Below the pieces are notes generated by a model. The model saw only the letters and a list, made by a program, of their open reading frames with translations, ran no database searches and was not told where the DNA came from. From assembly GCA_026708035.1 (NCBI GenBank), contig JAPOVQ010000001.1:1-64000 (forward strand): a stretch of DNA of 64,000 nucleotides, read 5' to 3'. The DNA is from Chloroflexota bacterium (GTDB lineage Bacteria; Chloroflexota; UBA11872). The first letter of the stretch is position 1; each line of letters opens with the position of its first letter. This document shows positions 12,950-38,988 of this stretch, piece after piece. The translations under genes and the position numbers were made by a program.

Positions 12950-15706
12950 TCAACGGCGTCCTGGGCGTCGGCGTGCTCGCCGCAACATCGAGCAGCAACG
13001 GGAGAAGTCGACGCCGGTAGCCGTGAGGCTCGCCACCAGACCTCCGGCGGTGACGGCGGCTATGGCGATGCCGAGGTCATACCAGGGCTGCGGCGCGTAC
13101 TCGAAGGTTATCGCGGAGTCTTCGGAAACCGGCAGGAAATAGCCGTTCCAAAGGCCGTCGGCGAGCAGCGGGGCGAACGCTTCGCCGTCCACCCAGGCCA
13201 GCCAGGTGGGATCGTACGCCCGGCGGAGAACGACGAACGCCCAACCGCCGGCGCCGCGCGCGGTGGCTTCGATTCGCGTGGGCTCGCGCGTCGAGACTTC
13301 CAGACGCGGCTGGACCAATGCGGGTGAGGCCGGCGCGCTCGTGGGACGCCAGTCGGCGGGCGCGAGGGCCAGGGTGCTCACGGCTTCGAGCCCGGATCCG
13401 GCGGTCACGCCGATATCTCCATCCGCCGCGGCTCCGACGCGCATCCAGCGCCAGCCGGACGTCGGTGCAGTGGTGGTGAGGTGCGCGCTGGAGTTAGCGG
13501 TCGCAACGTCGAGCCAGGTCGAGCTAGGGCTGGTGAAGACGCGCAGCCAGACGGAGCGGTCGTGGTCGTCGGGAACGTGAATCCGCAGCGCGTCACGCTC
13601 GCCTCCCGGCGTGGCGAATGCCAGACCCAGGCCGTAGTCCGACGCCCAGTCGTGGAGCCCCTCCCGTCCAAGGCGCTTGAGCCAGGACTGTCGCTCATCC
13701 GCGTAGGCGCCGCCGCGGGTCCAACCGCCCCGTGTGCCGTCGAAGCCAAACCAGCCGGTGACGGGCATCAGCTCAACGTCGGCGGCGGCGGCGAAGATTG
13801 CGTCGGTGGTTGGCTGCGCGGGGGCGACCGAGTCAGGCAGCGGCGGACGCGCGCGGTGGTTAGCCAGGATGCGCGTGGCGCCGGCGTCGGCGTCGGCAGC
13901 CAGCCCGTCGCTCCAGGCCGCGCCGGTCGATTCGAGCACCGCCGCAGCGGCGCCGAGCCCGAACGCCATGGCGTTCGGGCCGGACGCAACGACCGAGGCG
14001 CGAGGCAGCGCGGCGAGGGCCGTGGCCAGCGCGTCACCGGCCGGTTGGTCGCGCATCACGACCACGTGGCTGAAACCCGCGCGTTCGGCGGCGGCGAGCG
14101 CCTCGGCAGGCTCGATGCCGTAGATGTACTCGATCCAGCGACCGGGGACGGGCGACGGCGGCGCCGGCGAACGCGTATCGCCGGTGAGGGATGGATTCGC
14201 CAGGCTCGCCGCCTCCATCAGGCGCAGGGTGCGCGCCGGGTCCCAGGGCGCGGGCCGGTCGTCGGAGGACACGACCAGGATTCGACCCTCCGGCCCGGCG
14301 GCCGCGTCCGCCGCCCGCAACACGTCGCGATAGTCCGCCGGCAGCGGTCGCGGGAGGTAGCCGGGTTGATCAGTGCTCCACAGCAGCGGCACGGCGGGAA
14401 TCGCGTGGACGCCGAGCGCGAGGGCGACATAGCCCGCCAGCAGTGAAGGACCGAGCGCGCTTCGCGTCCACCCGCCGGCCCCAACCCGGCTGAAGAGATC
14501 GGCGACGACGAATCCGGCGCCGAAGGCCTGCGCCAAGATGAGCAGACCGACCACCCGGTCCGGTTCACGAAAGACCCACAGGCCGGGAACGGCATTCACG
14601 GCTGCCTGATAGATGTCGGCCGTGAGCCCCCAGTTCGACGCGGCCGCGACCAGGGCCGCCGCGTATCCCCCGACGGCCAGATAGAGTGCGGGCGGTCCCC
14701 ACCGGCGTAGAGCAACGGCCGCCAGTGGCAGCGCCGCCACCGCCCATCCGGCGAACTCCCAGGGCAGCCGGCCGGCGCCCGAGGGAATCAAGACCCCATG
14801 CCAGTTGGCATTTGCGGCTCCCTGGAGCGTGGTCGGCAGGTCCTGGTGTCGCGCGAGCACCGTGCGCGTTTGGTCCATGAGCGTGTAGGCCGGGTCGGGG
14901 CTGCCTCCGTAGAGCTTGACTGCGACATACGGCGCGATCTGGTAGGCCAACAGCGGGATGAGCGCCGCCGACCACACGAGGCCGTCGGTCAACGCCCGCC
15001 GACGCTTGACCGGGCACTGCACCATCGTGCCGACGACCCACGCGGCAATCATGAGCGTGGTGAAGACCAGGTAGTGGGGCTGCGCGGCGCCCAAGAGCGC
15101 GAAGACGAGGGCGGACGCAACCGTCCAGCGCCGCTGCGTGGTTCGCGTGCCCTCGAGATAGAGCCCCAGGACAAGCGGCGCCGCCGCCCATTGGGCCAGC
15201 AGCCAGCTGTGCTCCAGTCGCGCGATCGTCCACGGATTGACCACCAATGCCACCGCCGCGACCATGGCGCCCATGGCTGCGGCGGTGCGAGGAATCTCAG
15301 TGCGCCAGCGGGCGAACAACGCAAATGCGGCGAATGCGCTGACGTATCCGACGCCCGCGATCCACAGCACGATCAGCCGGGCATACGTCGCGCCGTCCAG
15401 GCCGAGCGCTTTGGCAACGCCAACCAGAGTGAGTGTGATCGGCAGGCGTCCGGTGCCCGCGATGCTCAGCGTCTCGCGCGGCGACCACAGGGGATAGACG
15501 CTGTGCTCGACGACGCGATCCAGGAAGAGCGAGGGATAGAGATCACGCTGTTGCAAGTCGCCGGGGGTCGTGATGACGGCCCAGAACACGGCCACCACGA
15601 TCAGCGCGCCGGCGGCGAACGCCAGCGCCCAGGGGCTTGCCAGCCGTACGCCGAGCCGCCAGAGGGACGGCAGCGGCGAAGGGCTGCGACCTGGACGGCG
15701 AGTCAC
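12950..15706 (-). CDS. YfhO/GT-C-like giant membrane protein (copy 1)
   Basis: This is a 918-residue protein with about 12 hydrophobic segments in residues 24-460 and a large extracytoplasmic C-terminal region before a last helix near 890. The first outer loop holds an acidic site (Asp55 in GDLQQRDLYPS), as in GT-C glycosyltransferases. NPWTIARLEHSW and the FREPDRVVG motif follow at about 160 and 380, shared with the three other copies here. The end (YDPTWLAWVDGE...NGYF) resembles the C-terminal domain of YfhO-type proteins. The likely role is transfer of a lipid-linked sugar to a surface glycan; this is inference. The GTG start lies only five bases from the divergent partner gene. Confidence 0.75.
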   Translation of the reverse strand: MTRRPGRSPSPLPSLWRLGVRLASPWALAFAAGALIVVAVFWAVITTPGDLQQRDLYPSLFLDRVVEHSVYPLWSPRETLSIAGTGRLPITLTLVGVAKALGLDGATYARLIVLWIAGVGYVSAFAAFALFARWRTEIPRTAAAMGAMVAAVALVVNPWTIARLEHSWLLAQWAAAPLVLGLYLEGTRTTQRRWTVASALVFALLGAAQPHYLVFTTLMIAAWVVGTMVQCPVKRRRALTDGLVWSAALIPLLAYQIAPYVAVKLYGGSPDPAYTLMDQTRTVLARHQDLPTTLQGAANANWHGVLIPSGAGRLPWEFAGWAVAALPLAAVALRRWGPPALYLAVGGYAAALVAAASNWGLTADIYQAAVNAVPGLWVFREPDRVVGLLILAQAFGAGFVVADLFSRVGAGGWTRSALGPSLLAGYVALALGVHAIPAVPLLWSTDQPGYLPRPLPADYRDVLRAADAAAGPEGRILVVSSDDRPAPWDPARTLRLMEAASLANPSLTGDTRSPAPPSPVPGRWIEYIYGIEPAEALAAAERAGFSHVVVMRDQPAGDALATALAALPRASVVASGPNAMAFGLGAAAAVLESTGAAWSDGLAADADAGATRILANHRARPPLPDSVAPAQPTTDAIFAAAADVELMPVTGWFGFDGTRGGWTRGGAYADERQSWLKRLGREGLHDWASDYGLGLAFATPGGERDALRIHVPDDHDRSVWLRVFTSPSSTWLDVATANSSAHLTTTAPTSGWRWMRVGAAADGDIGVTAGSGLEAVSTLALAPADWRPTSAPASPALVQPRLEVSTREPTRIEATARGAGGWAFVVLRRAYDPTWLAWVDGEAFAPLLADGLWNGYFLPVSEDSAITFEYAPQPWYDLGIAIAAVTAGGLVASLTATGVDFSRCCSMLRRARRRPGRR

Positions 15707-15711
15707 TGCCG

Positions 15712-16461
15712 ATGACGTGGCGTCGATTGGGAATGGCGCGGGGTGTGCTGGCGGCTTTGAGTGTAGTCGCGGCTCTGGCGGCCGCCCTGGCGCTGGGAGG
15801 CGCGGAACGCCAGTGGCCGGCGTTCCCGACCTACGCGTTCAACCTGGACTTCGGGCCCGCCTTTGCCGGCGGCAGCCTGGAGCAGACGTTCGCGGCTCCG
15901 GCCACGCCGCTGCGCCGCATCGAGCTGCGTGCGGTGAGCCCCTGGCCCGAGACCGTCACGGTTCGGTTGCACGATGTCGGCGATCCGGCAGCGGTGGTGC
16001 TGGTCGAGTCCAGCGTTGGGATTGCCGCCGACGGCGCGATACGGCTAGACGTTCCGGGGACGGTGGATACCAGTGCACGGTTCCTGCAGATCCAGGTCAT
16101 CAATCCGCCCGATTCACCCATGCCCTTAGCGCTCCAGGCCAATCACACCGACCCCTATAGGGATGGACAAGCCGCCATCGGCAGCGACCCCGGTACGGGT
16201 TCGGTTGACCTGGTGCTACAGACCTGGCGGCGTGTCACGCCGACGGCGCTGGGGATGGAGGTGCTGCGCGCGAACGCGCTCGGCGCCCTCTTTGCGCTGG
16301 TGTCGCTCATCGCGCTCGCCGGTCTGGCGCTGGCCTGGTTCTGGCGTCGATTTGCCGACCGATCTCGATCGGTGATGGCGGCGGCTGGATTGCTGGGCGT
16401 CGCGGCGGGACTTGGACTTCTGCGCGTCGGCTTCGAAGTCCTCGCGCCCTGGGTGACCTGA
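15712..16461 (+). CDS. Partner protein of the YfhO-like module (copy 1, divergent)
   Basis: This 249-residue protein has an N-terminal helix (residues about 8-30), an extracytoplasmic region of about 150 residues predicted to be mostly beta strand, and two C-terminal helices (about 190-215 and 222-246). The layout matches the partner proteins at 18795, 26139 and 36110, although sequence similarity is low apart from FNLDFGPAFAGGSLEQTF versus related openings such as FGLGPIVGSITQSV. The chosen ATG is at 15712; an open frame extends to 15637 inside the divergent gene. Function unknown. Confidence 0.65.
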   Translation: MTWRRLGMARGVLAALSVVAALAAALALGGAERQWPAFPTYAFNLDFGPAFAGGSLEQTFAAPATPLRRIELRAVSPWPETVTVRLHDVGDPAAVVLVESSVGIAADGAIRLDVPGTVDTSARFLQIQVINPPDSPMPLALQANHTDPYRDGQAAIGSDPGTGSVDLVLQTWRRVTPTALGMEVLRANALGALFALVSLIALAGLALAWFWRRFADRSRSVMAAAGLLGVAAGLGLLRVGFEVLAPWVT

Positions 16462-16466
16462 CCGGG

Positions 16467-17483
16467 CTAGCCGCCCCACTCGGCGCGGCTGTGCGGCCGC
16501 GCCGCCCCCAGCAGGCGTCGCAGCGTCACCGTGCCGTAGACGACCAGCGTGATCCAGCACGCGGGCAGGTGGTAGAGCCAGGCGCGATCCCGCCGCCGCA
16601 GCCAGCCAATCGCCGCCTGGACCAGCAGGGGCGCCACGGTCAGCGTGGCGGCGGCGAATAGCAGGGCGCCGCGCCACGGCGGGGCGGTCGGCCCCGTCCG
16701 CATGCCGGCCGCGCTGAAGTAGAGAAAGTCTTGCGCCCGCCGGGTTTGCTTGCGGGCGAACTGTCGTAGGGATTGGGCGTAGTGGTGCGCGATGCCAAGG
16801 TGCAGCTTGGCGACGTGGACGAAGGACCCAGAAGTGCCCGAGTGGAGGATGTCGACATCGAAGAGATACCCGTCGCGCACGGCGGCGGCGGCAACCGACC
16901 GCCGGGTGAAGAAGCCGTTGGCCCCCACCGTCGGCAGGCGCTCGCGACGGAACCGAACCTTGCGGAAGGTGGGAGTCTCCTCATAGACCTCGTGATCCAC
17001 GCCGGTCCACTTGCCCGTGACGAGGCATTCGCGGTCGTAGGTCCCGAGAAAGAGGACGAAGGGATCGTTCATGCCGAGCAGCGCGAAGTAGCGGTCGAGC
17101 GCGGGCATCGTGTCCAGGGCGGTGAATCGGATGGGCTCGGCGCCGGCAACTTGTGGATCGCCCAAGGCGTCGACGACGGCCTCCAGGGTGGATGGCGACG
17201 GCAACTCGTTGTCCGAGTCGACAAAGCCCACGATCGCGTGGGTCGCCTGCGCCAGACCGGCGGCCTTGCCGGCTTCACCCGTGACCAGCGGGTTTTCGAC
17301 CACCGTGCAGCCCGACGATTCGGCGACGTTGCGCGTCGTGTCGGTTGAGCCGCCGTCGGCGACGATGACTTCCAGCCGATCCGCCGGATATCGCTGGGCG
17401 CGAATCGACCGGAGGGCGATTTCAAGACTCCGCGCGCAGTTGAGCGTGGGAATGACAATCGAGATTCCGGGGGCATCCGCCAT
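16467..17483 (-). CDS. Family 2 glycosyltransferase
   Basis: This is a 338-residue GT-A enzyme. The N-terminal ISIVIPTLNCARSLEIAL strand-helix, the EVIVADGGSTDTT nucleotide-binding segment and the D-x-D-like FVDSDNE metal site (around residue 96) are present. A C-terminal hydrophobic region with three or so helices (about 250-325) probably holds it at the membrane. Start chosen at the ATG 17483 just before the first beta strand. It is the last gene of a minus-strand run (YfhO-like, partner, GT4, GT2), 82 bases after the GT4 stop. Confidence 0.88.
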   Translation of the reverse strand: MADAPGISIVIPTLNCARSLEIALRSIRAQRYPADRLEVIVADGGSTDTTRNVAESSGCTVVENPLVTGEAGKAAGLAQATHAIVGFVDSDNELPSPSTLEAVVDALGDPQVAGAEPIRFTALDTMPALDRYFALLGMNDPFVLFLGTYDRECLVTGKWTGVDHEVYEETPTFRKVRFRRERLPTVGANGFFTRRSVAAAAVRDGYLFDVDILHSGTSGSFVHVAKLHLGIAHHYAQSLRQFARKQTRRAQDFLYFSAAGMRTGPTAPPWRGALLFAAATLTVAPLLVQAAIGWLRRRDRAWLYHLPACWITLVVYGTVTLRRLLGAARPHSRAEWGG

Positions 17484-17565
17484 GGCAGGCAGTATGCCGA
17501 AGCGTCCCCCTGAGCGGGTCGGCTCGACTCCGCCACCACGACGCGGTATTCGCGCGCGGCGACTC

Positions 17566-18798
17566 CTACGCGTCGTTGCCGGACGCGCCGCCGTTGTCGG
17601 CGTCGAAGCCATATTGCCGGACGATCACGTCCACGTTTCGCTCGGAGAACCGGCGCTCAGCCTCGGCGCGCGCTTGCTCGCGGAGCGCGTCCAGACCGGC
17701 GCGATCGGCCAGCATGTCCTGCAGTCCCGCCATGAACGCCTCGGCGCACGGCTCAACGAGCCGCCCGATTTCGGGAGTCACGGCTTCTCGCAGACCGCCG
17801 AGGTTGCTCGCGACGATTGGCGTGCCGGCCGCGCTGCCCTCGAGCACCACGATTCCCGCCGCTTCTTCGTACTGCGACGGCACCAGCAGCAGGTCAGCCG
17901 CGGCATACATCGAGGCGATGGTGTCGAGGCGTTCGGCTGGCGGGCCGGCAGGATCCTGCATGAGCGTCAAGTTTGGCAACGCCGTTGAAGCCTCCGCGAC
18001 CTCGGTTCCCATATCTCCTTCGGCGCCCAGCATCCGGAATTGCACGTTGGGCAGGCGCCGGGCGAGCTCGAGAACGATGCCCACGCCCTTCTTGCGCAGG
18101 AGTCGGCCAACAAAGAGGCAGGTGGGCGTCGACTTGGGCCAGCCGAGCCGCGGGCGGGCCTCGGCCTGACTGCGCGGCCGAAACACTTCGAGGTCGACCC
18201 AGTGCTGATGGGCGGTGACGCGAGCCGGGTCCAGGCCGATGGCGAGAAGCTCCTGCCGGGACGCCTCGCTCACGGTCAGCACCCGATCGGCGCGCCCGAG
18301 CAGGGAGCGCACGGCTTGCGCGAGCAGCCGGCGCTGCCGCAACTCGTAGATCGCGTGCATGCTGACGACGATCGGCTGCGGCGCACCGGTCCAGCGCATC
18401 CCCAAGGCCGCCACGGCGGCGGCCAACCCGTGCGCATGGATGACGTCGAAGCCGTCGCTATGGCGGATACGGTGTCGGACGGCGCCCACCAGCAGGCCGG
18501 GAACCAGGTAGGCAAACACCAGCGGCGCGTATGGTTCGATGCGCGGATGCCATCCGCGCCCAAACCACGGAATGCGGATGACTTCGCCGTTTGGGAGCGG
18601 TTCGCGCGACGGGGCCTTCACCGGGGCGACCAGCGGTTGGTGCGTGAGGAGCGTGACCCAGATGTCGCGCCGCGCGAGCGCGGCGATGAGGGCATCGATG
18701 TGCGTCTCGACGCCGCCACGATTGGGCGAGGCGAAGGGTGACAGCATGAGCACACGCCGACGGTCGCCGGAGTGCGAATCGCGCGCCGCCGGCGTCAT
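17566..18798 (-). CDS. Family 4 glycosyltransferase
   Basis: This is a 410-residue GT-B retaining glycosyltransferase. The N-terminal acceptor half starts RVLMLSPFASPNRGGVETHI. The C-terminal donor half contains LFVGRLLRKKGVGIVLELA and the E-x7-E motif in QYEEAAGIVVLEGSAAGTP. Its ATG overlaps the stop of the upstream partner gene by four bases, so translation is coupled to the YfhO-like module. It is not closely related to the three paralogous GT4s at 22.8, 32.3 and 34.4 kb. Confidence 0.92.
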   Translation of the reverse strand: MTPAARDSHSGDRRRVLMLSPFASPNRGGVETHIDALIAALARRDIWVTLLTHQPLVAPVKAPSREPLPNGEVIRIPWFGRGWHPRIEPYAPLVFAYLVPGLLVGAVRHRIRHSDGFDVIHAHGLAAAVAALGMRWTGAPQPIVVSMHAIYELRQRRLLAQAVRSLLGRADRVLTVSEASRQELLAIGLDPARVTAHQHWVDLEVFRPRSQAEARPRLGWPKSTPTCLFVGRLLRKKGVGIVLELARRLPNVQFRMLGAEGDMGTEVAEASTALPNLTLMQDPAGPPAERLDTIASMYAAADLLLVPSQYEEAAGIVVLEGSAAGTPIVASNLGGLREAVTPEIGRLVEPCAEAFMAGLQDMLADRAGLDALREQARAEAERRFSERNVDVIVRQYGFDADNGGASGNDA

Positions 18799-19517
18799 GT
18801 GATTGCGGCCGGCCCATGAAGCAGGCCGATAATGACGGCCGCCGCCACGCCACTGCCCACCGCCACAGCCGCCGAGCGTCCGAAGCGCCGAAGATGCAGC
18901 GAGGACTGCGCGGCGCTACCCATCACCATGCCCACCAGCAGCGCAACGGCGCCTCCGACCGCCAGGTAGAGCGGCGACTCGGTGGCCTGCACTCGCAGCC
19001 GCGTGAGCGGGCCTGCGTGGCCGGTGGCTGAAAAGGCCAGATCGACGTCAACCGGCGATCGGCCGAACTGATCGACGAGCTGCCCACCCGCATACGTATC
19101 GTTTCCCGTGGCCCCGACGTAGAGCTTCGCCGGACTGTCTTCGAGCGCCACGACCCGAATGGCAAGCAGTCCGGCTGGTAGGTCAACCGACGCCATCGCG
19201 ATTGACACCTCGCGAAGTTCAGCGCCCGGCGGCGCCTCGAAGCGAGCCGACCGGAGCGGCGGGCCATCGTCGGCACGCAGGAGGTGAACGTCCGCGTACG
19301 CCGCGGGACCGCCTTCGCTCCGCGCCCAGATAGTCACGGTGTCTATGGGGCCGCCGGCGAAGGCGACCGACTGCGTGATCGAGCCAACGATCGGTCCGAG
19401 CCCGAAGCTCGGCGCCACCGGATTCTTGGCGGTGGTCATCGGCTTCCACCCCAGGCCGACCGCGGCCCCGAGCATCAACGCCAGCACCGTGGCGAGGAGC
19501 CAGACGGCGATCCTCAT
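18795..19517 (-). CDS. Partner protein of the YfhO-like module (copy 2)
   Basis: This 240-residue protein has an N-terminal helix (residues 3-23), an extracytoplasmic region (about 30-180) and two C-terminal helices (about 185-205 and 215-235). It is a clear paralogue of the 240-residue protein at 36110-36832. Shared segments include FGLGPIVGSITQSV / FQFGPVLGSVTQTI, DGPPLRSARFEAP / DGPPLRSAVFEAP and DVDLAFSATG / DIDLAFSATG. ATG at 19517 overlaps the TGA of the giant membrane gene by four bases (19514-19517), so the two are made together. I do not recognise a named domain. Confidence 0.75.
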   Translation of the reverse strand: MRIAVWLLATVLALMLGAAVGLGWKPMTTAKNPVAPSFGLGPIVGSITQSVAFAGGPIDTVTIWARSEGGPAAYADVHLLRADDGPPLRSARFEAPPGAELREVSIAMASVDLPAGLLAIRVVALEDSPAKLYVGATGNDTYAGGQLVDQFGRSPVDVDLAFSATGHAGPLTRLRVQATESPLYLAVGGAVALLVGMVMGSAAQSSLHLRRFGRSAAVAVGSGVAAAVIIGLLHGPAAIT

Positions 19518-21589
19518 GGACGCGGACCACTTGGCCGCGGCCGGTGCGGCCACAGCGTCCAGACGGCCCACGCGAAGAGCCCCGCCCACGCTACGGCGTG
19601 GCCCACCAGCAACGCCTGGTGCAAGCGATATTCGAGGACCAGAGGGCCTGAGGCGCCGGCCTCCGTGCGCACGCGCAGCAGGTCTCGCTCGGACGCTTCG
19701 ACCGTCGCGGCATAGCCCGGCACGTCAGCGGTCCAGAGTGGGTCCCAATATTCCTGGGTGAAGATTTCGTGCGCATGCTCCCCGGCTGGCGGTAGGTCGA
19801 TGACAAGGCGATGCATGCCCTCGCGCCGCCACGGTAGCTCAATCGGTCCACGGGGACCTGTCACGTAGACCCACGGATACGCCGGCTCGACCGTGCGAAA
19901 CACCTCGTAATAGTCCGCGGTCAGCTCGAGCGCAAGACCGTCAGTCTGGCGCAGGGCCTGGGCAAGCTCCCGACCGCGGAGAGTGCCCGTTGGAACCAGC
20001 ACCCGGGACACGCCGTGGGCGCGGAGCGTGTCGGCGAGGTCCGACGGGCCGGCTTCGATTAGCGACACGAGGCGGTCGCCGACCAGCGAGTTTTCCGTCG
20101 CATAGGGCGTGGTGACGGCCAGCGTTTCGATGGCGTGCAAGACACGGTGATGCTGCGACCACTCCGGGGACCGCAAGGGCCACACGGCCAGAACCGTGCG
20201 GGAGCCGGCGGCGGCGTTGCGCCGGTCGATTTCCTCGGGCACCGTGCGGAACGAGGCCGGGAACCGCTCGGGCACCAGGCTCAGGGTCCGATCGTCCCAG
20301 AGCATGCGCTGGATCCCCGGCACCATAAAGGCCGCCAGCAATAGCCCGAGGACTGCTGCCTGGATGGTTCCGACGGCCGGCAGGCGGCGTGGGGCAATTC
20401 GGACGAGCGTCGCCGGTGCGAGGGCAAGTCCGGGCAGATAGGCCAGGGCCAGCGCGCCGGAGAGCTTGTCCGGTTCTCTGAGCGCCCAGCCGAACGGGGC
20501 ATGCGCGGCGACGGCCAGGTAGCCGGGGCGCAGCCCCTCGTGCCAGCTGGCAATCTGAATGAACGCCGTAGCTGCGCCGACGACGGCGGCGTATCCCAGC
20601 ACGCGGCGCTGACTGGGCTGGCGCCAAAACGCCAGTGCGAGCAAGGCGACCGGGATCAGGGCGGCCATGCGCCACCCCGGCAAAGCGGTGGCCGCGGGCT
20701 TCAGGCCCCCGCCGAAGAATGTGTGCCCCGTCAGGGTGAGGGTGTCGATGACGGATTGGCCGCTCTCGAGCACCGGCTGGACATCAGTTCCTTCGGCGTA
20801 CCTGGGTCCGGTGGGCGACCCGGCGGCTGCCGTGACCAGGAGCGGTATCAGGATGAATGCGGCGAATACGGCAGTGCCACCGAGGAACGCCACAGCGGCT
20901 GCGCCGATCGGGAGGCGGGGGCCGCGACTGGTGACGGCGGCGAAGGCGAACCATCCGAGGCCCACGAGCAGGCCAATCGCCATGTAGTGCGGCGAGGTGG
21001 CGACGGCAAATGCCAGCATGGCGGCCGCCGCCAGCGCGCGATGGATTCGAGCGCGAGAGTTCTGCGTGCGGGTCGCCGACACGACGAGACCGAGCACCAG
21101 CGGCAGCAGCACGCCGCTCACGTGGACGCCCAACTGCTCCCAGCGCGCCAGCGTCCAGGGATTGAGCGCCCAAAACAGGCCAGCCAGCACGAGGCCGAGG
21201 CGAATTGCGACAGGATGTTGGGCTCGAGTTTCTGGTCCCGTCACCAACCGGGCACCGAAATATCCGCCGAGGAATCCCAAGACGTGCCAACTCAGCCAGT
21301 GAAACTTGCCCGCCACTTCCGTGGTGAGGTCGAAGGCTTGAACGAGATAGCCCCAGGGCACATAGGTGTACGTGCGCATGACATTGACGAGCACGGTGCC
21401 GTAGGAGGTATCCCAGGCACTGGTGAAGCGACGAGTCCAGAACTCGTTGGCGAACGGATAGCCGAGATCGCCCTGAATGATTTCGCCCGGCGTCGCGACG
21501 ACCCGCCAGCCCGCGGCGAGGGTGAGCAACAGGCCGAGCGCAATCCACGCCGAATCGCGGGCCAGCAGCCGGGCGATGTGGGTGGTCAT
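19514..21589 (-). CDS. YfhO/GT-C-like giant membrane protein (copy 2)
   Basis: This is a 691-residue multi-pass protein. The first helix is at about 15-33, followed by an outer loop with an acidic site (Asp41 in GDLGYPF). NPWTLARWEQLGVHVSG and SPHYMAIGLLVG are in the core, and the REPDKLSGALALAYLPG motif is near 370-390. The C-terminal region (about 440-650) is extracytoplasmic and contains DYYEVFRT and EYWDPLW, resembling YfhO C-termini; a last helix follows. It is the closest relative of copy 4 (36829-38988). It heads an operon with a coupled partner, a GT4 and a GT2. A GT-C glycosyltransferase role is inferred. Confidence 0.78.
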   Translation of the reverse strand: MTTHIARLLARDSAWIALGLLLTLAAGWRVVATPGEIIQGDLGYPFANEFWTRRFTSAWDTSYGTVLVNVMRTYTYVPWGYLVQAFDLTTEVAGKFHWLSWHVLGFLGGYFGARLVTGPETRAQHPVAIRLGLVLAGLFWALNPWTLARWEQLGVHVSGVLLPLVLGLVVSATRTQNSRARIHRALAAAAMLAFAVATSPHYMAIGLLVGLGWFAFAAVTSRGPRLPIGAAAVAFLGGTAVFAAFILIPLLVTAAAGSPTGPRYAEGTDVQPVLESGQSVIDTLTLTGHTFFGGGLKPAATALPGWRMAALIPVALLALAFWRQPSQRRVLGYAAVVGAATAFIQIASWHEGLRPGYLAVAAHAPFGWALREPDKLSGALALAYLPGLALAPATLVRIAPRRLPAVGTIQAAVLGLLLAAFMVPGIQRMLWDDRTLSLVPERFPASFRTVPEEIDRRNAAAGSRTVLAVWPLRSPEWSQHHRVLHAIETLAVTTPYATENSLVGDRLVSLIEAGPSDLADTLRAHGVSRVLVPTGTLRGRELAQALRQTDGLALELTADYYEVFRTVEPAYPWVYVTGPRGPIELPWRREGMHRLVIDLPPAGEHAHEIFTQEYWDPLWTADVPGYAATVEASERDLLRVRTEAGASGPLVLEYRLHQALLVGHAVAWAGLFAWAVWTLWPHRPRPSGPRP

Positions 21590-26183: not shown

Positions 26184-27257
26184 CCGGGAGGCGGCCGCCC
26201 GTGTCGCCGTGCCCAGTAGCGCCCAGGCGCCGGTCAGGAAGGCCAAGGCCGTCGCCACGTCATAGGCCTCCTGCGTGACGGCCGCAGCCGCCGCGCCCCC
26301 GAGAGGGATGGGAGCGAGATACCAATGTCGGATCGCGGCGACTGTTGCAAGCCACAAGCCCCGAGCGACACTGACGACGCTGGCGACGGCTGCCCGAGGC
26401 GCCGCGACGACGATGACGGTCAACCCAGCGATCACCACGATGGGAAACGCGAGCATGGCGGCGATGCCGGTCGGCGTCAGACCACTCAGGATTCCAATGT
26501 GAGTTCCCGTATTGAGCGGCACGCTGAGATGCGCCGTAGCCATGAAGAGCCACACCACCAGCGCGGCGAGGCCGGCGAGCGTCGTGGCAGCCGCCGCGAA
26601 TCGCCCGTACATGCTTGCGACGAGCATGGCCGCCGCCGCGCCGACCAATGCCGCCAGCACGGCGACACCGGCAGCAACGGCAAGCGCCCGCTGTTCCAAG
26701 GCCGCCACGATGGCCTCCAGATGGAGCGCGGGCGGCAGACGTTGAAACATCCGGTGGCCCAACGCAAGAAACCCCCGCAGCGGCTGACCCATGATGGTGA
26801 GTTGCGATCTTGCGTTTGGATCACCGATGTCGACGCCCCGCAGCACCACTCCGCCGCCGGGCGCGTCGAGTACGCGTACGGCCAATGTGTAGCCGTCACT
26901 CTCGGTTGGCACGGGGAACGTGGCCACATATTCCGCCATGCCCGAGCCGGTGAGGCGCAGCCGATCGGCCCACTCCACGGAGTCGCCACGCTCGAGCCGC
27001 ACTTCGAGCGTTGGCGGCGCCGCGACCGATGCGGTCGGGCGCGCCTGAAATCCCACAAACAGCTCCGGCCCACGCTCGGGGCTGATCGCCTGCCGCATGC
27101 TCCACCCCGGGAGCAACGGTCCAATCTCGAAAGGCTCACCGTCCACGCCACCGACGACCAGGGGTCCCGCCGGCCAGCCAACGGCGGCGGCCACGCTGAG
27201 GGCCACGGCCACGATCCAAACTGCCGGGACGACGGGCCGGCGTCGTCTCACAGTCAC
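26139..27257 (-). CDS. Partner protein of the YfhO-like module (copy 3, extended)
   Basis: This 372-residue protein starts from the GTG at 27257, which overlaps the TGA of the giant membrane gene by four bases. One N-terminal helix (about 12-32) is followed by an extracytoplasmic domain (about 35-180). There are then about six C-terminal helices instead of two, making it longer than the 240-residue copies. The opening FEIGPLLPGWSMRQAISPERG corresponds to the FGLGP...V...S/T region of the other partners. Function unknown. The coding end overlaps the convergent carbamoyltransferase gene. Confidence 0.7.
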   Translation of the reverse strand: MTVRRRRPVVPAVWIVAVALSVAAAVGWPAGPLVVGGVDGEPFEIGPLLPGWSMRQAISPERGPELFVGFQARPTASVAAPPTLEVRLERGDSVEWADRLRLTGSGMAEYVATFPVPTESDGYTLAVRVLDAPGGGVVLRGVDIGDPNARSQLTIMGQPLRGFLALGHRMFQRLPPALHLEAIVAALEQRALAVAAGVAVLAALVGAAAAMLVASMYGRFAAAATTLAGLAALVVWLFMATAHLSVPLNTGTHIGILSGLTPTGIAAMLAFPIVVIAGLTVIVVAAPRAAVASVVSVARGLWLATVAAIRHWYLAPIPLGGAAAAAVTQEAYDVATALAFLTGAWALLGTATRAAASRLRGGRLADEEVLER

Positions 27258-30200
27258 CGCCGCCACCACCGGCGCGGCATCGGCGCCCAACCGATGACCG
27301 GCATGCCGACGAGAAATCCAAGGTTCACCATCAGAATCCAGAAATAGCCGAAGTTCGGCGTGAACGTCGCCGTCACCACGTCCCCGGGCGCCAAGTCCAC
27401 GAACCAGCCATTGAAGTGCCCGTCGACGACGACGTGATGCTCGGGGCTGACCTCATCGTCGTTGACGTGGAGCACCCAGCGCGGATCGAAGCGCTCGTCG
27501 AACCGGACGAGTTGCTCACGCGGCTGGCCCTGGTATTCGGCGGATGCCCATCCCGCCCCTTCGCCCGTTAGGGCAAGCCCGCCCCCGGCGTGCGACCGCG
27601 ACTGCGGCGCATGCTCGAGGACGATGGACAGGCCATGCGGCAGCGGGGAGACCGCGACGTCGAGCAGCTCGAACTCCAGACCCGTCAGTCCTTCGCGCAG
27701 GTGTTGCACGTCAAGCGTGGCGACGGGAGACCCGGCATCCAGCGGCACCTCGACCTCCACGAACCTGTCGTGCCGATTGGCCAGCTCTTGGTGCATCGCA
27801 TGCGCGACGTAGGGGTATGCCTGGGCGCCGATCACATTGACGCCGTCGACGCCGGTGGTGACGCGTCCACTGATGGCAACGGTGCGTCCGTCGGACGGCA
27901 CCGTAACTTCCACGCGCACAGCCCCGGCGCATATGGCGGTGTCGCAGGGCTGATACTCCGTGGCCTCCGGGAGTCGGTGGCTCACGCGGACGACCGGCTC
28001 GGGCGGCGGCGGCGCCTGTAGCGTGAGACGGTGCGGACCAGCCTCGAGGTCCACGCTGCCTTCAAGGATGTCATAGCCCAACTCGGTGCTCGTGCGTGCC
28101 AGCGGCACCAGCGACCCGTCGATGCCGACCGTCGGCTGCAGGCCCGGCACAGCGGCGAGTCGCACGGTGTAGGGGCCCGACCGTGCCAGCCGGAACGTGC
28201 GGTCGCCGTCGGTGGTGCCGAGGTCTGGCAGCACCGTATAGACGGGAAGCCGGCCGAATGCCCGCTCCGCCGCGCGCTCGGCTGCCTGGATCTCCGACGA
28301 TGAGAGCAATCCCAACTTCGAAACGGCGTTGAGTCCGGGGCCATCGGTTCGCACCAGGACCTCATGCGAGCCAGCGCGGGTGGTCGGCGCCTCGACCCGC
28401 GTCCAGCGATACCCGTAGCCGTCCGCTTGCCGGGTCGGGATGCGCGCGACGGATTGCCCGTCCACGAAAATCTCGAGCGCGCCGCCCTCCGGGCTTACGA
28501 AATGTCGAATCCAGAGCTCGCTGGTCGCGCCGGCGGTGTTGACCGTAGCCGCGAAGGCCACGCCGTCGGCTCGGGTCAGCAGCCCGCGCGTCATGTCCGC
28601 GATCTCAGGATCGGCGTACCACCAGGCATTCTTGTACGGGGCTACCCACTCCCGCGTGGCGTCCGGGACCTCCGGCCAGAAGTTGTCCGCCGGGCTCACC
28701 AATGCCCCCTCGGGCAGATAATTGGCCGTCAGGTCCAGCGGATCAGCGCCTATCCAGATCTCCGTGGCGGCTCGGACGGCGCCGCCTGGGGCGCCGTCAA
28801 TTCCGCGCACACCCAGCTCGCCGCTGGCGATGGAAACTGCTCCTGCGTCGTCGAACATGTGCCAGGCGGTGACGAGCGGTCGGAGGGACGGAGAGCCGAC
28901 GATGATGCGCCCAGGAACTCCCAGCCGCGACGCGGGCGGCGTGGCTACCTCGTACAGCTCGACCTCGCCCACGGACAGGTCATCCAGGCGATCGAGACCC
29001 GGCTGAGCCGCCAGCGCGAGCCGCGGCCGCGGCCGACGTTCCTGCCACTCCAGCCACGGTTCGCCGGTGGGCACGATGAAGCCGGCATGCGTGCTCTCCC
29101 AATGCGGATCGAGCATGACGTTGCGAAAGCGGCCGTACGCCAAGAGCCGGTCCACGGGATACCGGTTGGGTCCATAGAGCCCCTGATTGAGGGTGGCCGT
29201 CCACGGGCCGTTGAGGGTGGAGGCCGCCGAGCCCCAGATAGATCGCTTGGGCGGCTGGACGACGGTGGGGGGATTCCCCTGGGTTGAGAATCGGCCGGTG
29301 CGGCTCTGATAGCTGCTCGGCCAAAACATCGGCAGATGAACCATGCGGTCGTTGTGCGGCAGCGCGCGCAGGTTGTCGATCACGGCGACGGTGTCGTCAT
29401 CAATCGTGTAGGGCGGCAGATGGCCCGCCAGGTTCCCGTTCCAGAAGGGGAGGGTGCTCACGGCCACCACGACACCCACGAGCATGCCGCCCGCGCTGCG
29501 CCACGCACTCGGCGGCCGGGCCACGAGGTGGGCGACGCTTTGCCCCACCAGGAAGGCCAGCAGCAGTCCCGCCCCGACGGTGAGATAGCGGATATTCCTG
29601 AAGATCGCGCCCACCACCGTGCCGTCGATCGAGTCCTGGATGACGGAGAACGGTTCGTTGAAGCCCTTCCCGATCAGCACCAGGGCAAGAAACCCGATCA
29701 CGCCCAGCAGGGCACGCTGTCGGGCTTGCCCGCGCAGCAGGATGGGCGCCACAAGGGCGAGGCCAGTCATCAGGCCGCGGGCAACGAGCTGGATGCCGCT
29801 GCCGGCGGCGAGCGGCCCTTCCGGATTCTGGGAATAGTTATAGGGCGTGCCGGTTAGAGTCAGCGCCTCGGCCAGAGTCGGCGCGGCGCCCTTGATCCAT
29901 TGGGCGGCGGCCTCCAGGCTCCAGGCCGACATGACCTGGTTTGCCGAGGGCACGACGATGAGCTGCCAGGAAATGAAGGCAATGGCCGGGTGCAGCAGGA
30001 TGACGCTGAGCCCCATGGCGGCGACCAGTCCGAGTCGGCGTAGCCGCAGGCCTCGCGTGCCCGGAGCGGTAAAGGCCCGAAAGAGCGCATAGAGGCCAAC
30101 CACAGCGGTGGTGATGAACGTCATGTGAATTGAGCTGGCCGCCAACCCGATCCAAAGGCTGCCGCGCACGAATCCACGAACGCCGGGGGCACGGTCGAAG

Positions 30201-30781
30201 GTCTCATGGGCGACCTGCAGCGCCTTGGGCAGCAGCGCCACGCTGATGAGCATGGCGGCATAGCCGGTGACGAAGGCATCGAGGAAGAACGGCGTGGTCA
30301 TGTAGACGACCGCCGCCGTGAAGGCGGCGGGCCTGCCAAACGCGAAGCGTTTGCCGGCCTGGTACATAAATACGCCGGCCAAAGCGAGAAATATGATGGA
30401 GACGCGCGAGGTCAGCCAGCCATCCACGCCTGGAATGAGCGCCAAGGCTCCCAGGGCAAGCTGGAGGTACTGGCTCATCGCCCGCTCTTCCTCGGACGAA
30501 CCGAAATAGTTCGTCTGCCAGGCCGAGAGCCGATCGACAGCGAAGTCGGTGTTCTGCCAGGCGGCAAACGGGGTGGTCCAGTCGTCGCGCAGCCCCAGGT
30601 AGCCCGAGTCGAAGATCAGGCCCCGATGCCACAGCACCACCAGCGCGAGGATGGCCAAGTAGGCAGACGCGTCCGGATGGCGCGCGATCAGCTGCCTGGC
30701 CCACGCGACGACACGGTGGAGCGTTTCCATCCCGGTCGACCGCCCGTGGCGCGCCACGGGCAGCGATGTCTGTAGGCTCAT
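27254..30781 (-). CDS. YfhO/GT-C-like giant membrane protein (copy 3, largest)
   Basis: This 1175-residue protein has a core of about 12 helices (residues 40-480), an extracytoplasmic region of roughly 650 residues and a final helix near 1145. The first outer loop contains Asp66-Asp67 (LRDDWTTPFAAW), where GT-C enzymes place catalytic acids. The FRNIRYLTVGAGLLLAFLVG stretch (about 390) matches the FREPDK-type motif of the other copies. The C-terminus has FDPRWVLHVNDDE and HFNGWF, as in YfhO-like tails. The outer part probably contains beta-sandwich, perhaps carbohydrate-binding, modules. Coupled to its partner gene by a GTGA overlap. Confidence 0.78.
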   Translation of the reverse strand: MSLQTSLPVARHGRSTGMETLHRVVAWARQLIARHPDASAYLAILALVVLWHRGLIFDSGYLGLRDDWTTPFAAWQNTDFAVDRLSAWQTNYFGSSEEERAMSQYLQLALGALALIPGVDGWLTSRVSIIFLALAGVFMYQAGKRFAFGRPAAFTAAVVYMTTPFFLDAFVTGYAAMLISVALLPKALQVAHETFDRAPGVRGFVRGSLWIGLAASSIHMTFITTAVVGLYALFRAFTAPGTRGLRLRRLGLVAAMGLSVILLHPAIAFISWQLIVVPSANQVMSAWSLEAAAQWIKGAAPTLAEALTLTGTPYNYSQNPEGPLAAGSGIQLVARGLMTGLALVAPILLRGQARQRALLGVIGFLALVLIGKGFNEPFSVIQDSIDGTVVGAIFRNIRYLTVGAGLLLAFLVGQSVAHLVARPPSAWRSAGGMLVGVVVAVSTLPFWNGNLAGHLPPYTIDDDTVAVIDNLRALPHNDRMVHLPMFWPSSYQSRTGRFSTQGNPPTVVQPPKRSIWGSAASTLNGPWTATLNQGLYGPNRYPVDRLLAYGRFRNVMLDPHWESTHAGFIVPTGEPWLEWQERRPRPRLALAAQPGLDRLDDLSVGEVELYEVATPPASRLGVPGRIIVGSPSLRPLVTAWHMFDDAGAVSIASGELGVRGIDGAPGGAVRAATEIWIGADPLDLTANYLPEGALVSPADNFWPEVPDATREWVAPYKNAWWYADPEIADMTRGLLTRADGVAFAATVNTAGATSELWIRHFVSPEGGALEIFVDGQSVARIPTRQADGYGYRWTRVEAPTTRAGSHEVLVRTDGPGLNAVSKLGLLSSSEIQAAERAAERAFGRLPVYTVLPDLGTTDGDRTFRLARSGPYTVRLAAVPGLQPTVGIDGSLVPLARTSTELGYDILEGSVDLEAGPHRLTLQAPPPPEPVVRVSHRLPEATEYQPCDTAICAGAVRVEVTVPSDGRTVAISGRVTTGVDGVNVIGAQAYPYVAHAMHQELANRHDRFVEVEVPLDAGSPVATLDVQHLREGLTGLEFELLDVAVSPLPHGLSIVLEHAPQSRSHAGGGLALTGEGAGWASAEYQGQPREQLVRFDERFDPRWVLHVNDDEVSPEHHVVVDGHFNGWFVDLAPGDVVTATFTPNFGYFWILMVNLGFLVGMPVIGWAPMPRRWWRR

Positions 30782-30903: not shown

Positions 30904-32133
30904 CTACGGCGTCGCAATGGCACGGTCCCGCCGGAGCACCCAGACGGCCCAGCCGAGCAACGCGAGCACCCCGGCGCCTAGGAAGGCGTCGAGCGTCCAC
31001 GCCACGGCTGTCAGGGACTCGTGATGCAACCACAACGTGACGGTGCACGCGATGCACAGCGGGACAAGCACAACCCATACGCGAAGCGTACCGGCCCCGA
31101 TGTGGAAGTAGGTGAGCATGGTCACGAGCGCAAGGAGCGATCCGGCAAGGGTATAGGCCCAGACGAGCTGTGGGACCGGCACGTAGCGGTCGGCGAAGAT
31201 GATCTGGAAGACCAGCTCGGGCAGCGCGACGATGATCAGCGCTGCGCCGCCGCCGATCAGGACGGTGAACGCGGCAGTTACCGCGAAGGTGCGAGTCAGC
31301 GGCTCGCCGGCGGCTACGTGCCGAATGATGTGCGGGAGCACCACCTGCGCCGCAGGTAACGATGCGAAAAGGACGATTCGCCCAACGAGGGCAGAGGCCG
31401 CGTACAACGACGCGCTGGCATCGTCGAAAAAGTGCCGCACGACCAATACGTCCACGTTCGTCAGGATGGCCAGCGAGAGAGCGAGCAACCCAACCCGCAC
31501 GTGTGCCGACACTCCGGTCGCATCCGGGACAGCACCAACCGGCGCCTCCGTCGTCGCCCGCGCGATGTATGGCGCGGCGAGCACCACGACCGCGACCCCC
31601 ACAAGTCCAGCAAGCGCAGAGGCGGCCATGCCTCCGGCCACGCCAAAGCCAAGCGCAACCAGGCCAACCCCGATCGAGGCGCGCATCACGCCGTCCACCA
31701 GGTTCGAGGCCCCGAGCAGGAGAAACGCGCGCAAGCCGGTGAGCAGCGCCTTGGTGAACGGGACGACAAAGCCGATGGCAACCGCACCGCCCAGCCAGAC
31801 AATTGCGGGACGGTTGTCGGTCCCAATCAAGAGCTCGATGGCACCGCTGGTTGCCACGACGACGAGCCACGCGATCAAGCCAATCAGCGCACTCCGGATG
31901 AGCGACCGCCGTAAGACCTCGAGAGCGGCCGCGCGCCCCTGCCCCACGACGGCCAGGCTTGTGATGCGGGTGCCGATCGGCAGCAGCAACTGCGACGGCA
32001 CCGAGAGCACGGCGAACAGCGCCAGCACCGCGAACAGGTCCGCATAGTCGCCTGGCGCCAGCAGGCGCGCCATGGCCCACTGAAACCCAAAGGACGTCAG
32101 GCTGGCGAGAAAGCTGAGGCCGCCAAGCACCAC
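30904..32133 (-). CDS. Polysaccharide flippase (Wzx/MOP-like)
   Basis: This 409-residue integral membrane protein has about 12 helices spread over its full length, an N-terminal GFQWAMARLLAPGDYADLFA segment and a paired ARxLxPxxYG-like spacing typical of polysaccharide and O-antigen exporters. Its expected role is to move a lipid-linked oligosaccharide across the membrane. The first start codon in frame is GTG at 32133 (a second GTG is at 32130); the open frame runs on upstream without another standard start. A truncated, frameshifted copy of its 5' end is found at 34005-34251. Confidence 0.85.
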   Translation of the reverse strand: MVLGGLSFLASLTSFGFQWAMARLLAPGDYADLFAVLALFAVLSVPSQLLLPIGTRITSLAVVGQGRAAALEVLRRSLIRSALIGLIAWLVVVATSGAIELLIGTDNRPAIVWLGGAVAIGFVVPFTKALLTGLRAFLLLGASNLVDGVMRASIGVGLVALGFGVAGGMAASALAGLVGVAVVVLAAPYIARATTEAPVGAVPDATGVSAHVRVGLLALSLAILTNVDVLVVRHFFDDASASLYAASALVGRIVLFASLPAAQVVLPHIIRHVAAGEPLTRTFAVTAAFTVLIGGGAALIIVALPELVFQIIFADRYVPVPQLVWAYTLAGSLLALVTMLTYFHIGAGTLRVWVVLVPLCIACTVTLWLHHESLTAVAWTLDAFLGAGVLALLGWAVWVLRRDRAIATP

Positions 32134-34251: not shown

Positions 34252-34364
34252 ACCGCCAGCATCGGCACCGTTGGGCGCTACTGGGGCCTAGCGCACCTCA
34301 GGCGTTTGCTTGCTCAGCGCCGTGCCATGTGTGCGTTCGCGGGGCTTTCGTGAGGGACGAATAT

Positions 34365-36109: not shown

Positions 36110-36832
36110 TCAAAGGAACGCGATCGGCCCAAGCAGCGGGCCCATCGCCGTTGCCGCGGCAGCACCAGCGCCGACGGTCACCGCGGCCATCCGGCCTATG
36201 GGTCCGTTTTCGAGCGACGACCATGCCACCCGGCCGGCCACAGCGCCCGCCAGGAGGGCCAAGGTCAGCCCAACCGCCAGGTGAAACGGGGCTTCGCTGG
36301 CTTGTGTTCGCCAACGGGTGAGCGCGCCCGCAGAGCCGGTGGCCGAAAACGCTAAATCGATGTCGATCGGTGAATCGCCCAGGCGGTCGGTGAGCTGCCC
36401 GTCCGGGTAGACATTGCCCAGCGTCGCCCCGACGAATAGCGCCGCCGCGCTGCCCTCGGACGTCCCAATGCGCAGGAGCAGGGTGCCAGGCGACAGATCG
36501 ATCGGCGCAAACGGGATGCGCGTCGCCTGCAGATCAGCACCCACCGGCGCCTCGAATACCGCCGAACGGAGGGGCGGACCATCCGGCGACCGGAGCAGGT
36601 GAGCCTCGGCCGCAGCCGGGTGCGCGCCGTTGCTGCGCGTCCAGACAACCATGGTCTCCAACGAGCCGCGTGGCATCTCGATTGTTTGCGTGACCGATCC
36701 CAGGACTGGGCCGAACTGAAAGTGCGGCAGCCTCGGATCTTTGGGGGTGGCGAGCGGCAGGCGCTCCAGTCCAACCACCGCTGCCAGTAAGAGCGCTACG
36801 ACCGTGCCAGCCAGCCAGGCCGCGGTTTTCAC
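36110..36832 (-). CDS. Partner protein of the YfhO-like module (copy 4)
   Basis: This protein has 240 residues from the GTG at 36832, overlapping the TGA of the giant gene by four bases (GTGA). It has the same length and layout as the copy at 18795-19517: N-terminal helix (about 3-22), extracytoplasmic region, two C-terminal helices. Conserved blocks are FQFGPVLGSVTQTI, DGPPLRSAVFEAP, LFVGATLGNVYPDGQL and DIDLAFSATG. Upstream in-frame codons to 37051 belong to the overlapping giant gene and are not part of it. Function unknown. Confidence 0.75.
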   Translation of the reverse strand: MKTAAWLAGTVVALLLAAVVGLERLPLATPKDPRLPHFQFGPVLGSVTQTIEMPRGSLETMVVWTRSNGAHPAAAEAHLLRSPDGPPLRSAVFEAPVGADLQATRIPFAPIDLSPGTLLLRIGTSEGSAAALFVGATLGNVYPDGQLTDRLGDSPIDIDLAFSATGSAGALTRWRTQASEAPFHLAVGLTLALLAGAVAGRVAWSSLENGPIGRMAAVTVGAGAAAATAMGPLLGPIAFL

Positions 36833-38988
36833 GGGCGCCCCCGCGATCGTCGCGGCCGTCGCGGCCACAGCGTCCACCCGGCCCACGCGATGAGCCCGGT
36901 CCATGTGACGGCGTGACCCGCCACCAGGGCGCGCTGCAGGGCGTAGTCCAGGACTAGCCGGCCATGGGCGCCCGGCGCCAGCCGCACGCTCAGCGACCCC
37001 TGCGCGGAGCGTTCCAGGGAGGTTGCGTGGTCCGGCAGATGAGCGACCCAAAGCGGATCCCAGAATTCCTGGACGACGATCTCGCGCGGCGCCTCTGGGC
37101 CGGGCGGCACGTCGATGACGAGCCGGTGCATGCCTTCACGCCGCCACGAAAGCTCGACCGGTCCCCCGGGATTCACTTCGTACACCCACGGGTGCGGGGG
37201 ATCGGCCGTCCGGAAAACCTCGAAGTAACCCTCCGAGAATTCGAGCTCCAGCCCGTCGGTCTCATGCAGCTGCTCGGCTAAAGCGCGACCAGCGGGCGTT
37301 CCGGTGGGCACCAGCGCTCGGGCAACGCTGTGCCGGCGGAGGGCGGCAACCAGCTCCGGAGATTCGCTGCGCACGAGGTCTTGCAGTCTTGCGTGCAGAA
37401 GGGTCGTATGCGCCACGATAGGGGTCGTGATCGCCGTGTGTTCGGGATGGTGAATGACCGGAGCATCCGACCATTCGGGGTAGCGGCTCGCCGTGAGGAT
37501 TGCCAGGAAGGTGCGCGACATCCCGGCGGCGTTGCGCCGGTCGAGCTCCGCCGGCGCGGTGCTGAATGAAGACGGAAAGCGTACAGGCACGTTTTGCGCC
37601 GACTCGTCGAACAGGGTCCAATTGAGCGCGGGCAGCACGTAGACCAGAAGTCCGACGCCAATCGCGACGGTCTGAACGCCGCCAAGAATCGGGAAGCGGC
37701 GAGGTGCGTCGCGCGTGAACACGACGGGCGCAAGGGCAATTCCCGGGAGAAAAGCGAGCGCCAACGAGCCCGAGAGCTTGCCCGGTTCGGTGACGACCCA
37801 ACCGAACGATGCGTCGGCCATCAGCTCCAAATATGTTGGGCGGGTGACGTCGTCGAAGGTGGCAATCTGAAGCAGCGCCGTGACGCCGCCGAAAACGACC
37901 GCATAGCCCAGCACCTGCCGGTGATCCGGCAGGCGGCAAAGCGCCAGCAACAGCAGTGCCGCGGGAATCATGGCTGCCAGGCGCCAGCCCGGCAGCGCAC
38001 CTGGAACCGATGGCTTCAAGATCGGATCTCCGGATCTCTCACCGGTGAGGGAGAGGGTGTTGTCGACCGACTTGAGGGGATAGGCCACCGGCAGGCGCTT
38101 GCCGGTCTCGAGATACGCAGGCCCGGTCGGCGATCCGGCGACGGTGGCGGTGACGTAAGGAACGAGGATGAATGCCGCAAGTACCAAGTAGCCGCTCACG
38201 AATACCGCGGCGGTGACCATGATCTGGCGCCGACGGCGAGGCGTGGTGACCAAGGCAACGACCAGCCAGCCGATTCCCGCGAGGACGCCAACCGCCATGT
38301 AGTGCGGCGAGACCGAAATGGTGAACGCGAGAATCGCCGATGCCGCCAGCGCTCGCTGCACCCTGGCGCGCGGCATTTGCGTTCGCGTCGCCGATACGAG
38401 CAAGCCGAGGAGCAGCGGGAGCATCAGCGCGCTCACCCACACGTGCAACTGCTCCGAACGCGCCAGGATCCAAGGATTGAGAGCCCAAAAGAGGCCTGCA
38501 AGCAAGAGGCCCGCACGGGCCGCGACTGGATGCGCGGCGCGCGTTTTCGGTCCAACGAGCAAGCGCGCGCCGAAATACCCGGCCAGAAACCCCAGCAGGT
38601 GCCAGCTCATCCAGTGGAACTTGCCCGCCACCTCGGTCGAGAGCCCAAATATCCAAACGATTAGCCCCCAGGGAGCGTCCGCATAGGTGCGCGATATGTT
38701 GATGAGGCTGCTGCCGCTCGACGTGTCCCACGCGCTGAGGAACTTTCGGAGCCATAATTCTGCGGCAAACGGGTACTCCCGATCCCCAATAGTGAGTTCG
38801 CCCGGCGTCGCCACCACGCGCCACGCCACCGCGAAAGCAATCAGCAGCCCAAGCGCGATCCAGACCGCATCGTGGGCCAAGACGCGCTGCGCTAGTGCGG
38901 CAAATGTCGCTGCCCCAGACGCCCTGACGTGCAGTCGGGGGGGCATTCTGGTCAAGCGCCCCGTCCGTTCAGGCAGGCTGGCGCTCAT
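36829..38988 (-). CDS. YfhO/GT-C-like giant membrane protein (copy 4)
   Basis: This 719-residue multi-pass protein is closely related to copy 2. Acidic loop site Asp69 (TIGDREYPFAAELW), NPWILARSEQLHVWVSA, SPHYMAVGVLAG and the EPGKLSGSLALAFLPG motif are all present; the FRE part of the motif reads VTE. The extracytoplasmic C-terminal region includes GYFEVFRT and EFWDPLW and is followed by a final helix. The N-terminus is about 28 residues longer than copy 2 and may really start further in. It heads a minus-strand run with its coupled partner and GT4 paralogue C. Confidence 0.78.
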   Translation of the reverse strand: MSASLPERTGRLTRMPPRLHVRASGAATFAALAQRVLAHDAVWIALGLLIAFAVAWRVVATPGELTIGDREYPFAAELWLRKFLSAWDTSSGSSLINISRTYADAPWGLIVWIFGLSTEVAGKFHWMSWHLLGFLAGYFGARLLVGPKTRAAHPVAARAGLLLAGLFWALNPWILARSEQLHVWVSALMLPLLLGLLVSATRTQMPRARVQRALAASAILAFTISVSPHYMAVGVLAGIGWLVVALVTTPRRRRQIMVTAAVFVSGYLVLAAFILVPYVTATVAGSPTGPAYLETGKRLPVAYPLKSVDNTLSLTGERSGDPILKPSVPGALPGWRLAAMIPAALLLLALCRLPDHRQVLGYAVVFGGVTALLQIATFDDVTRPTYLELMADASFGWVVTEPGKLSGSLALAFLPGIALAPVVFTRDAPRRFPILGGVQTVAIGVGLLVYVLPALNWTLFDESAQNVPVRFPSSFSTAPAELDRRNAAGMSRTFLAILTASRYPEWSDAPVIHHPEHTAITTPIVAHTTLLHARLQDLVRSESPELVAALRRHSVARALVPTGTPAGRALAEQLHETDGLELEFSEGYFEVFRTADPPHPWVYEVNPGGPVELSWRREGMHRLVIDVPPGPEAPREIVVQEFWDPLWVAHLPDHATSLERSAQGSLSVRLAPGAHGRLVLDYALQRALVAGHAVTWTGLIAWAGWTLWPRRPRRSRGRP

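Follow-up and report, generated by a model that had tools for sequence, protein, structure and literature searches.

The 64,000-nucleotide stretch of Chloroflexota DNA analysed here (the window) contains four modules, each combining a large polytopic membrane protein with a small membrane-anchored partner. Each module is probably a two-protein extracytoplasmic glycosyltransferase for surface polysaccharide, in which a GT-C enzyme is associated with a non-catalytic partner. The role of the partner as an accessory subunit or module of extracytoplasmic GT-C enzymes is well supported by pairing, coupling, co-duplication and fusions. The components of the modules are the following:

12950..15706, minus strand: G1, type A large GT-C-like membrane protein (open reading frame of 918 amino acids)
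15712..16461, plus strand: p1, type A partner (249 amino acids), divergent from G1; partner profile E = 2.3e-78
18795..19517, minus strand: p2, type B partner (240 amino acids); AF2 model matching jelly-rolls in Foldseek
19514..19517, minus strand: ATGA stop/start overlap of G2 with p2
19514..21589, minus strand: G2, type B large protein (691 amino acids), assigned to GT-C by AF2 model and Foldseek
26139..27257, minus strand: p3, type C partner (372 amino acids), with extra C-terminal transmembrane (TM) helices
27254..27257, minus strand: GTGA stop/start overlap of G3 with p3
27254..30781, minus strand: G3, type C large GT-C-like protein (1175 amino acids), with extra outer domains
36110..36832, minus strand: p4, type B partner (240 amino acids), 52% identical to p2
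36829..36832, minus strand: GTGA stop/start overlap of G4 with p4
36829..38988, minus strand: G4, type B large protein, predicted GT-C (719 amino acids), 56% identical to G2

These genes had been located correctly in an earlier note on this DNA, and the large open reading frames are all on the minus strand. Profile searches find these four partner-family members in the window and no more; p3 is recovered at E = 1.7e-7 even by a profile built without it. The start codons of p2, p3 and p4 lie on the stop codon of their own large gene, and the overlap is in each case exactly four base pairs, as had been noticed. Such an overlap suggests translational coupling, rather than showing obligate co-translation as the earlier note had it; moreover, module 1 is divergent, so G1 and p1 are not co-translated. 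They are arranged head-to-head, with their called starts 5 bp apart. These nearly abutting starts (window positions 15706-15712) are kept in relatives and, with almost no gap between them, imply that the promoters lie within the neighbouring genes or that the true starts are further in.

The large proteins have 9-12 TM segments each, judged by hydropathy, and fall into three types. G2 and G4 together form type B. G1 (type A) aligns with type B in hhalign at E = 5e-37 over 520 columns, while G3 (type C) aligns with type A at E = 1.7e-6 over 404 columns, with type B at E = 4.5e-4 and with a YfhO sequence from the same genome at E = 1.1e-5 over 223 columns. A direct similarity of G3 to G1, G2 and G4 had to be rejected, there being no BLAST-level match over the membrane part; profiles alone connect them. 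The partners sort into the same three types: the type A and B partners are related at E = 2e-11 in profile comparison, and the type C partner aligns with the outer domain at 94% in hhalign (E = 1.4e-7). The resemblance of p2 to p4, already remarked upon, reflects their common type. In a tree the G2/p2 and G4/p4 lineages split together, so the type B module was duplicated as a unit. What had been called four copies are indeed four modules, but they are better described as three old types, A, B and C, of which B has been duplicated. Likewise, the motifs proposed to be common to the large proteins are present in G1 and G2, altered in G4 (TEPGK for REPDK) and missing from G3, which reads DDWTTPF where the others have D..YPF and contains neither NPWxxAR nor FREPDK.

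In the AF2 model of p2, an N-terminal TM helix (residues 2-23) leads into an outer jelly-roll of about 140 residues (residues 26-167, pLDDT mostly near or above 90), which is followed by an amphipathic helix (residues 170-180) and two TM helices (residues 182-206 and 213-233). The model agrees with the hydropathy of the partners, and both agree with the layout first described for them, an N-terminal TM helix, an outer domain and C-terminal TM helices. Conserved in the partners are GP..G..Q, close to where the domain begins, and D.Y..G / DL, close to where it ends. Compared with the PDB by Foldseek, the p2 model matches jelly-rolls, with phage proteins and Pgp3 first. CBM6, CBM35 and a CBM-bearing cycloisomaltooligosaccharide glucanotransferase are also among the matches (E of about 2e-4 to 3e-3); the jelly-rolls of phage proteins, of Pgp3 and of TNF-like proteins resemble the p2 domain as closely as these CBMs do, or more closely. 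Aromatic residues of the partners are conserved within types and not across types, without a family-wide aromatic platform; the jelly-roll fold is therefore compatible with sugar binding without demonstrating it. No Pfam match was found among 16 partners, no NCBIfam model matches them, and PHROGs and PDB sequences yielded no useful match for them either. A protocadherin match of the partner profile (PDB sequences, E = 0.003) was judged to be chance beta-sandwich similarity, and the partner is not taken for a flippase of the GtrA type, a known small polytopic companion of GT-C enzymes that has no outer domain, in view of its outer jelly-roll and the lack of a GtrA Pfam hit.

Binding of the acceptor by the partner is plausible, given its predicted jelly-roll fold. 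A realistic but doubtful alternative is a stabilising or assembly subunit like PIG-X/Pbn1, which would pack on the enzyme without recognising sugar. The accessory protein of GPI mannosyltransferase I, which binds its GT-C enzyme through an outer beta-sheet lobe together with a TM helix (PMC12653191, PMC9306709), offers a precedent, and the extra TM helices of p3 suggest packing in the membrane; nor is an aromatic sugar-binding platform common to the whole partner family. The presence of carbohydrate-binding modules among the jelly-roll matches argues the other way. Acceptor binding is rated slightly above stabilisation because the partner domain also occurs in cis (see below), like the CBMs of AftD, EmbC and GT136, yet a stabiliser could equally occur in cis. 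Since G3 and the larger types bring additional outer domains of their own, the partner is not simply a substitute for a missing CBM. Thus, of the two roles suggested in the earlier note, subunit or acceptor-binding cofactor, the first is well supported by pairing and fusions, while the second is suggested by the jelly-roll.

Among genomes of the same order, a partner lies beside 29 of 32 type A-C large genes (9/9 loci for type A, 12/13 for type B and 8/10 for type C), and module presence, order and orientation are kept in relatives. In the type B exception the partner has shrunk to a remnant of 101 amino acids, and both type C exceptions are tandem duplicates. At locus L052, a tandem type B large gene (15682-17841) with the remnant at 15434-15739 may be a natural case of two enzymes sharing one partner. 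In every B or C pair that retains the partner, the large gene stops within an NTGA; for L059, the most remote C pair, this reads TTGA and the start is uncertain. Partner type strictly matches enzyme type. Pairwise identities of large genes and partners correlate with r 0.97-0.99, a value that shared descent alone would also give. No recognisable partner lies beside two remote type A-like large genes of small-genome relatives (L060 and L061), nor beside L044, the ordinary YfhO gene in the window's own genome.

Many more partners were found with a broader profile in 400 Chloroflexota genomes, in a search that scored few candidates per genome and from which absence counts are weak. A scan with two strict peptide patterns matched Chloroflexota only, the patterns being too strict to show restriction to the phylum. 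Standalone partner genes, most encoding about 240-280 amino acids, adjoin large polytopic proteins in 58/72 cases, or 57/68 once four double-counted places are dropped and a giant truncated at a contig end is included, compared with 55/311 for the other similarly sized genes there; the loci come from related genomes and are not independent events. One of the neighbours is a protein of 666 amino acids with 14 TM segments and an 8-bp overlap, another is AftB-like (NF041481, E = 1.7e-6) and a third is weakly DUF2142-like (E = 1.3e-4); others are without family. The expectation that partners would be found beside GT-C genes elsewhere is thus borne out within the order and extends to other GT-C-like neighbours.

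The partner domain is also found fused to larger proteins. In other Chloroflexota classes it is N-terminally fused in proteins of 808-858 amino acids, three of which match DUF6541, and C-terminally fused to a clear DUF2142 protein (E = 1e-35). These fusions were recovered by a profile of the outer domain only, from which the TM helices were left out, at iE values from 1e-10 to 8e-4, the best reversed decoy for this profile being at 0.01. From their Pfam clans, we take DUF2142 and DUF6541 proteins to be GT-C-like. Paired and fused proteins could not be interpreted as split and fused forms of one enzyme type: the 666-residue protein aligns with the DUF6541 fusions over only 70 columns (E = 0.0013), and the alignment of the DUF2142-like paired proteins with the fused DUF2142 protein is poor. 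The cis/trans argument therefore has the shared partner domain, and not the enzymes, as its basis. Furthermore, the partner domain is present at the end of 7-TM proteins of about 470 amino acids that do not look like GT-C proteins, and is therefore not exclusive to GT-C enzymes.

Two of these proteins of about 470 residues, with about seven TM segments and a C-terminal partner domain, are encoded in tandem at locus L043 (8479-9894 and 10078-11502), and this type of fusion is widespread in the family. Contig 14 of the same genome as the window (locus L042) has an orphan type A-like partner gene (15372-16058) beside a gene for an LRR/cadherin-repeat protein. Another partner copy on this contig (9401-10101) is apparently split by a frameshift, and its neighbour is a 7-TM protein with a C-terminal partner domain.

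The partner may be a portable accessory module for the whole class of extracytoplasmic GT-C enzymes, serving, in some cases as a translationally coupled subunit and in others as a fused part, several sequence-unrelated families (AftD/YfhO-like, AftB-like, DUF2142, DUF6541 and others); we put this forward tentatively, with confidence a little short of even. If true, bacterial GT-C enzymes would have in the partner their first general family of non-catalytic subunits. It is improbable that the partner is a mere polysaccharide-operon gene, adjacent to the large gene through co-regulation and making no contact with its product. Against this reading, the domain is fused to GT-C-like proteins elsewhere in Chloroflexota, it is paired with polytopic proteins of several unrelated types, each enzyme type strictly has its own partner type, and enzyme and partner have been duplicated together. 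In its favour, 4-bp overlaps are frequent in dense operons, p1 and G1 are divergent, and one partner-like gene stands alone. We infer that enzyme and partner are in physical contact.

The AF2 model of G2 (pLDDT 81, pTM 0.85) has AftD (PDB entry 6w98) as its best Foldseek match in the PDB (E = 1.3e-9). Yeast STT3 (E = 1.5e-5), archaeal AglB (E = 1.9e-4) and bacterial PglB (E = 3e-3) are further matches, while MFS transporters only appear at E > 0.03, with TM-scores near 0.1. The likeness to AftD is one of fold only, sequence-level similarity being absent when a profile of 20 large proteins is compared with PDB sequences. No useful match for the large proteins was found in Pfam, NCBIfam, PHROGs or PDB sequences, and none of G1-G4 has a hit to YfhO (PF09586) in Pfam at E <= 1, leaving them below the gathering cut-off. 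Through intermediate sequences, links do exist: the large-protein profile matches the C-termini of proteins of the phylum assigned to YfhO by Pfam, and its membrane part matches a protein that Pfam calls STT3/PMT_2. The YfhO/GT-C label first given to these proteins is upheld by these alignments, and its GT-C part by the proximity of the G2 model to AftD and the oligosaccharyltransferases.

Types A and B share an invariant Asp in their first outer loop (D41 of G2), and type C has an invariant Asp in the corresponding loop (D67 of G3); residues 40-68 of G2, which form this loop, are of low confidence in the AF2 model. GT-C enzymes are known to use acidic residues in this loop (PMC8035078). With the predicted fold, identification of the large proteins as GT-C glycosyltransferases is close to settled, and it is very likely that they build surface sugars outside the cell. 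That they are instead transporters or flippases is very unlikely, for although the lack of a Pfam, NCBIfam or PDB-sequence match would allow it, AftD and oligosaccharyltransferases rank first in the fold search (E from 1e-9 to 1e-3), ahead of any MFS protein, and the Asp of the first outer loop is invariant.

In the mechanism that we propose, the large protein, as a GT-C enzyme of the AftD/YfhO-like group, would take a sugar from a polyprenyl-phosphate carrier at the outer face of the membrane, probably using the invariant Asp for the transfer, and would pass it to a surface polysaccharide, the product of the cluster in which the modules lie; we infer both the donor and the catalytic Asp. The partner would be located beside the enzyme, where it would either keep the acceptor glycan in place for the active site or stabilise the outer face of the enzyme. 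The four modules may add different residues or may act at different positions of the polymer.

The region is a surface-polysaccharide cluster, containing GT2 and GT4 genes and genes for a methyltransferase, a carbamoyltransferase and a radical SAM protein. Two genes adjoin the modules:

16467..17483, minus strand: GT2 glycosyltransferase with a C-terminal hydrophobic segment, adjoining module 1 (Pfam Glycos_transf_2, E = 4.9e-18)
30904..32133, minus strand: polytopic protein adjoining G3, without a Pfam match

The position of the GT2 gene is kept in relatives, and its product is a possible candidate for the synthase of the lipid-linked donor. At the position of the polytopic protein, relatives have a gene of similar size encoding 11-13 TM segments; this protein is a possible candidate flippase. 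Three related GT4 glycosyltransferase genes (window positions 32328-33596, 34365-35639 and 22781-23929), two of which are close copies, suggest repeated duplication in the cluster alongside the type B modules. The carbamoyltransferase gene (24384-26183) is convergent with p3 and overlaps its 3' end by 45 bp. The radical SAM protein (39046-40770) has a weak B12-binding domain and is encoded beside a B module in relatives too. The relatives in the genome collection are Chloroflexota MAGs, and the bin names of several of them (COS, RHO) suggest that they come from a study of sponges in which Coscinoderma and Rhopaloeides were sampled (PMC8163846).

These findings bear on how extracytoplasmic bacterial GT-C enzymes recognise polymer acceptors. 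A concrete helper family with a predicted fold can now be named, natural trans and cis versions are available for comparison, and matched pairs from one genome allow specificity swap tests. Proteins missed by every Pfam and NCBIfam model also gain a label, in Chloroflexota whose relatives appear to include lineages associated with sponges. The helper family appears to be undescribed, no description having been found in family libraries or in the literature searched, which was mostly open-access; heterodimeric GT-C enzymes as such are already known from eukaryotes.

AftD of Mycobacteria is, like G2, a large GT-C enzyme with outer beta domains, but carries its CBMs in its own chain, as EmbC does (PMC3044687), whereas here the jelly-roll is a separate protein. 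YfhO (PF09586) enzymes, which glycosylate LTA and WTA, have the C-terminal outer segment and last TM helix in common with the large proteins, although the latter fall below Pfam recognition. The GT136 ribofuranosyltransferase (PMC11127046) also combines a GT-C part with an outer domain that binds carbohydrate, and serves to decorate a polymer at a late stage; it belongs to a different family and has the CBM fused in one chain. In PIG-M/Gpi14 with PIG-X/Pbn1 (PMC9306709, PMC12653191), a GT-C catalytic subunit is likewise accompanied by a non-catalytic, TM-anchored, beta-rich partner; however, this is a single fixed pair of eukaryotes, Pbn1 has a single C-terminal TM helix, and the likeness does not imply homology. 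Bacterial counterparts are the mycobacterial LpqZ-AftA and FecB-Rv3035-AftB complexes (PMC12802301), reported in 2025, in which the GT-C enzymes AftA and AftB are bound by outer accessory proteins proposed to be CBM-like. Those helpers have unrelated folds (substrate-binding-protein folds and a beta-propeller) and are lipoproteins or lipoprotein-like, while the partners described here are TM-anchored, with a predicted jelly-roll, and are encoded beside their own enzyme. In a 2021 review, the authors speculated that GT-C enzymes of smaller size may depend on a second protein for binding of the acceptor polymer (PMC8035078); no candidate family is named where this suggestion is made, and the partners described here supply one.
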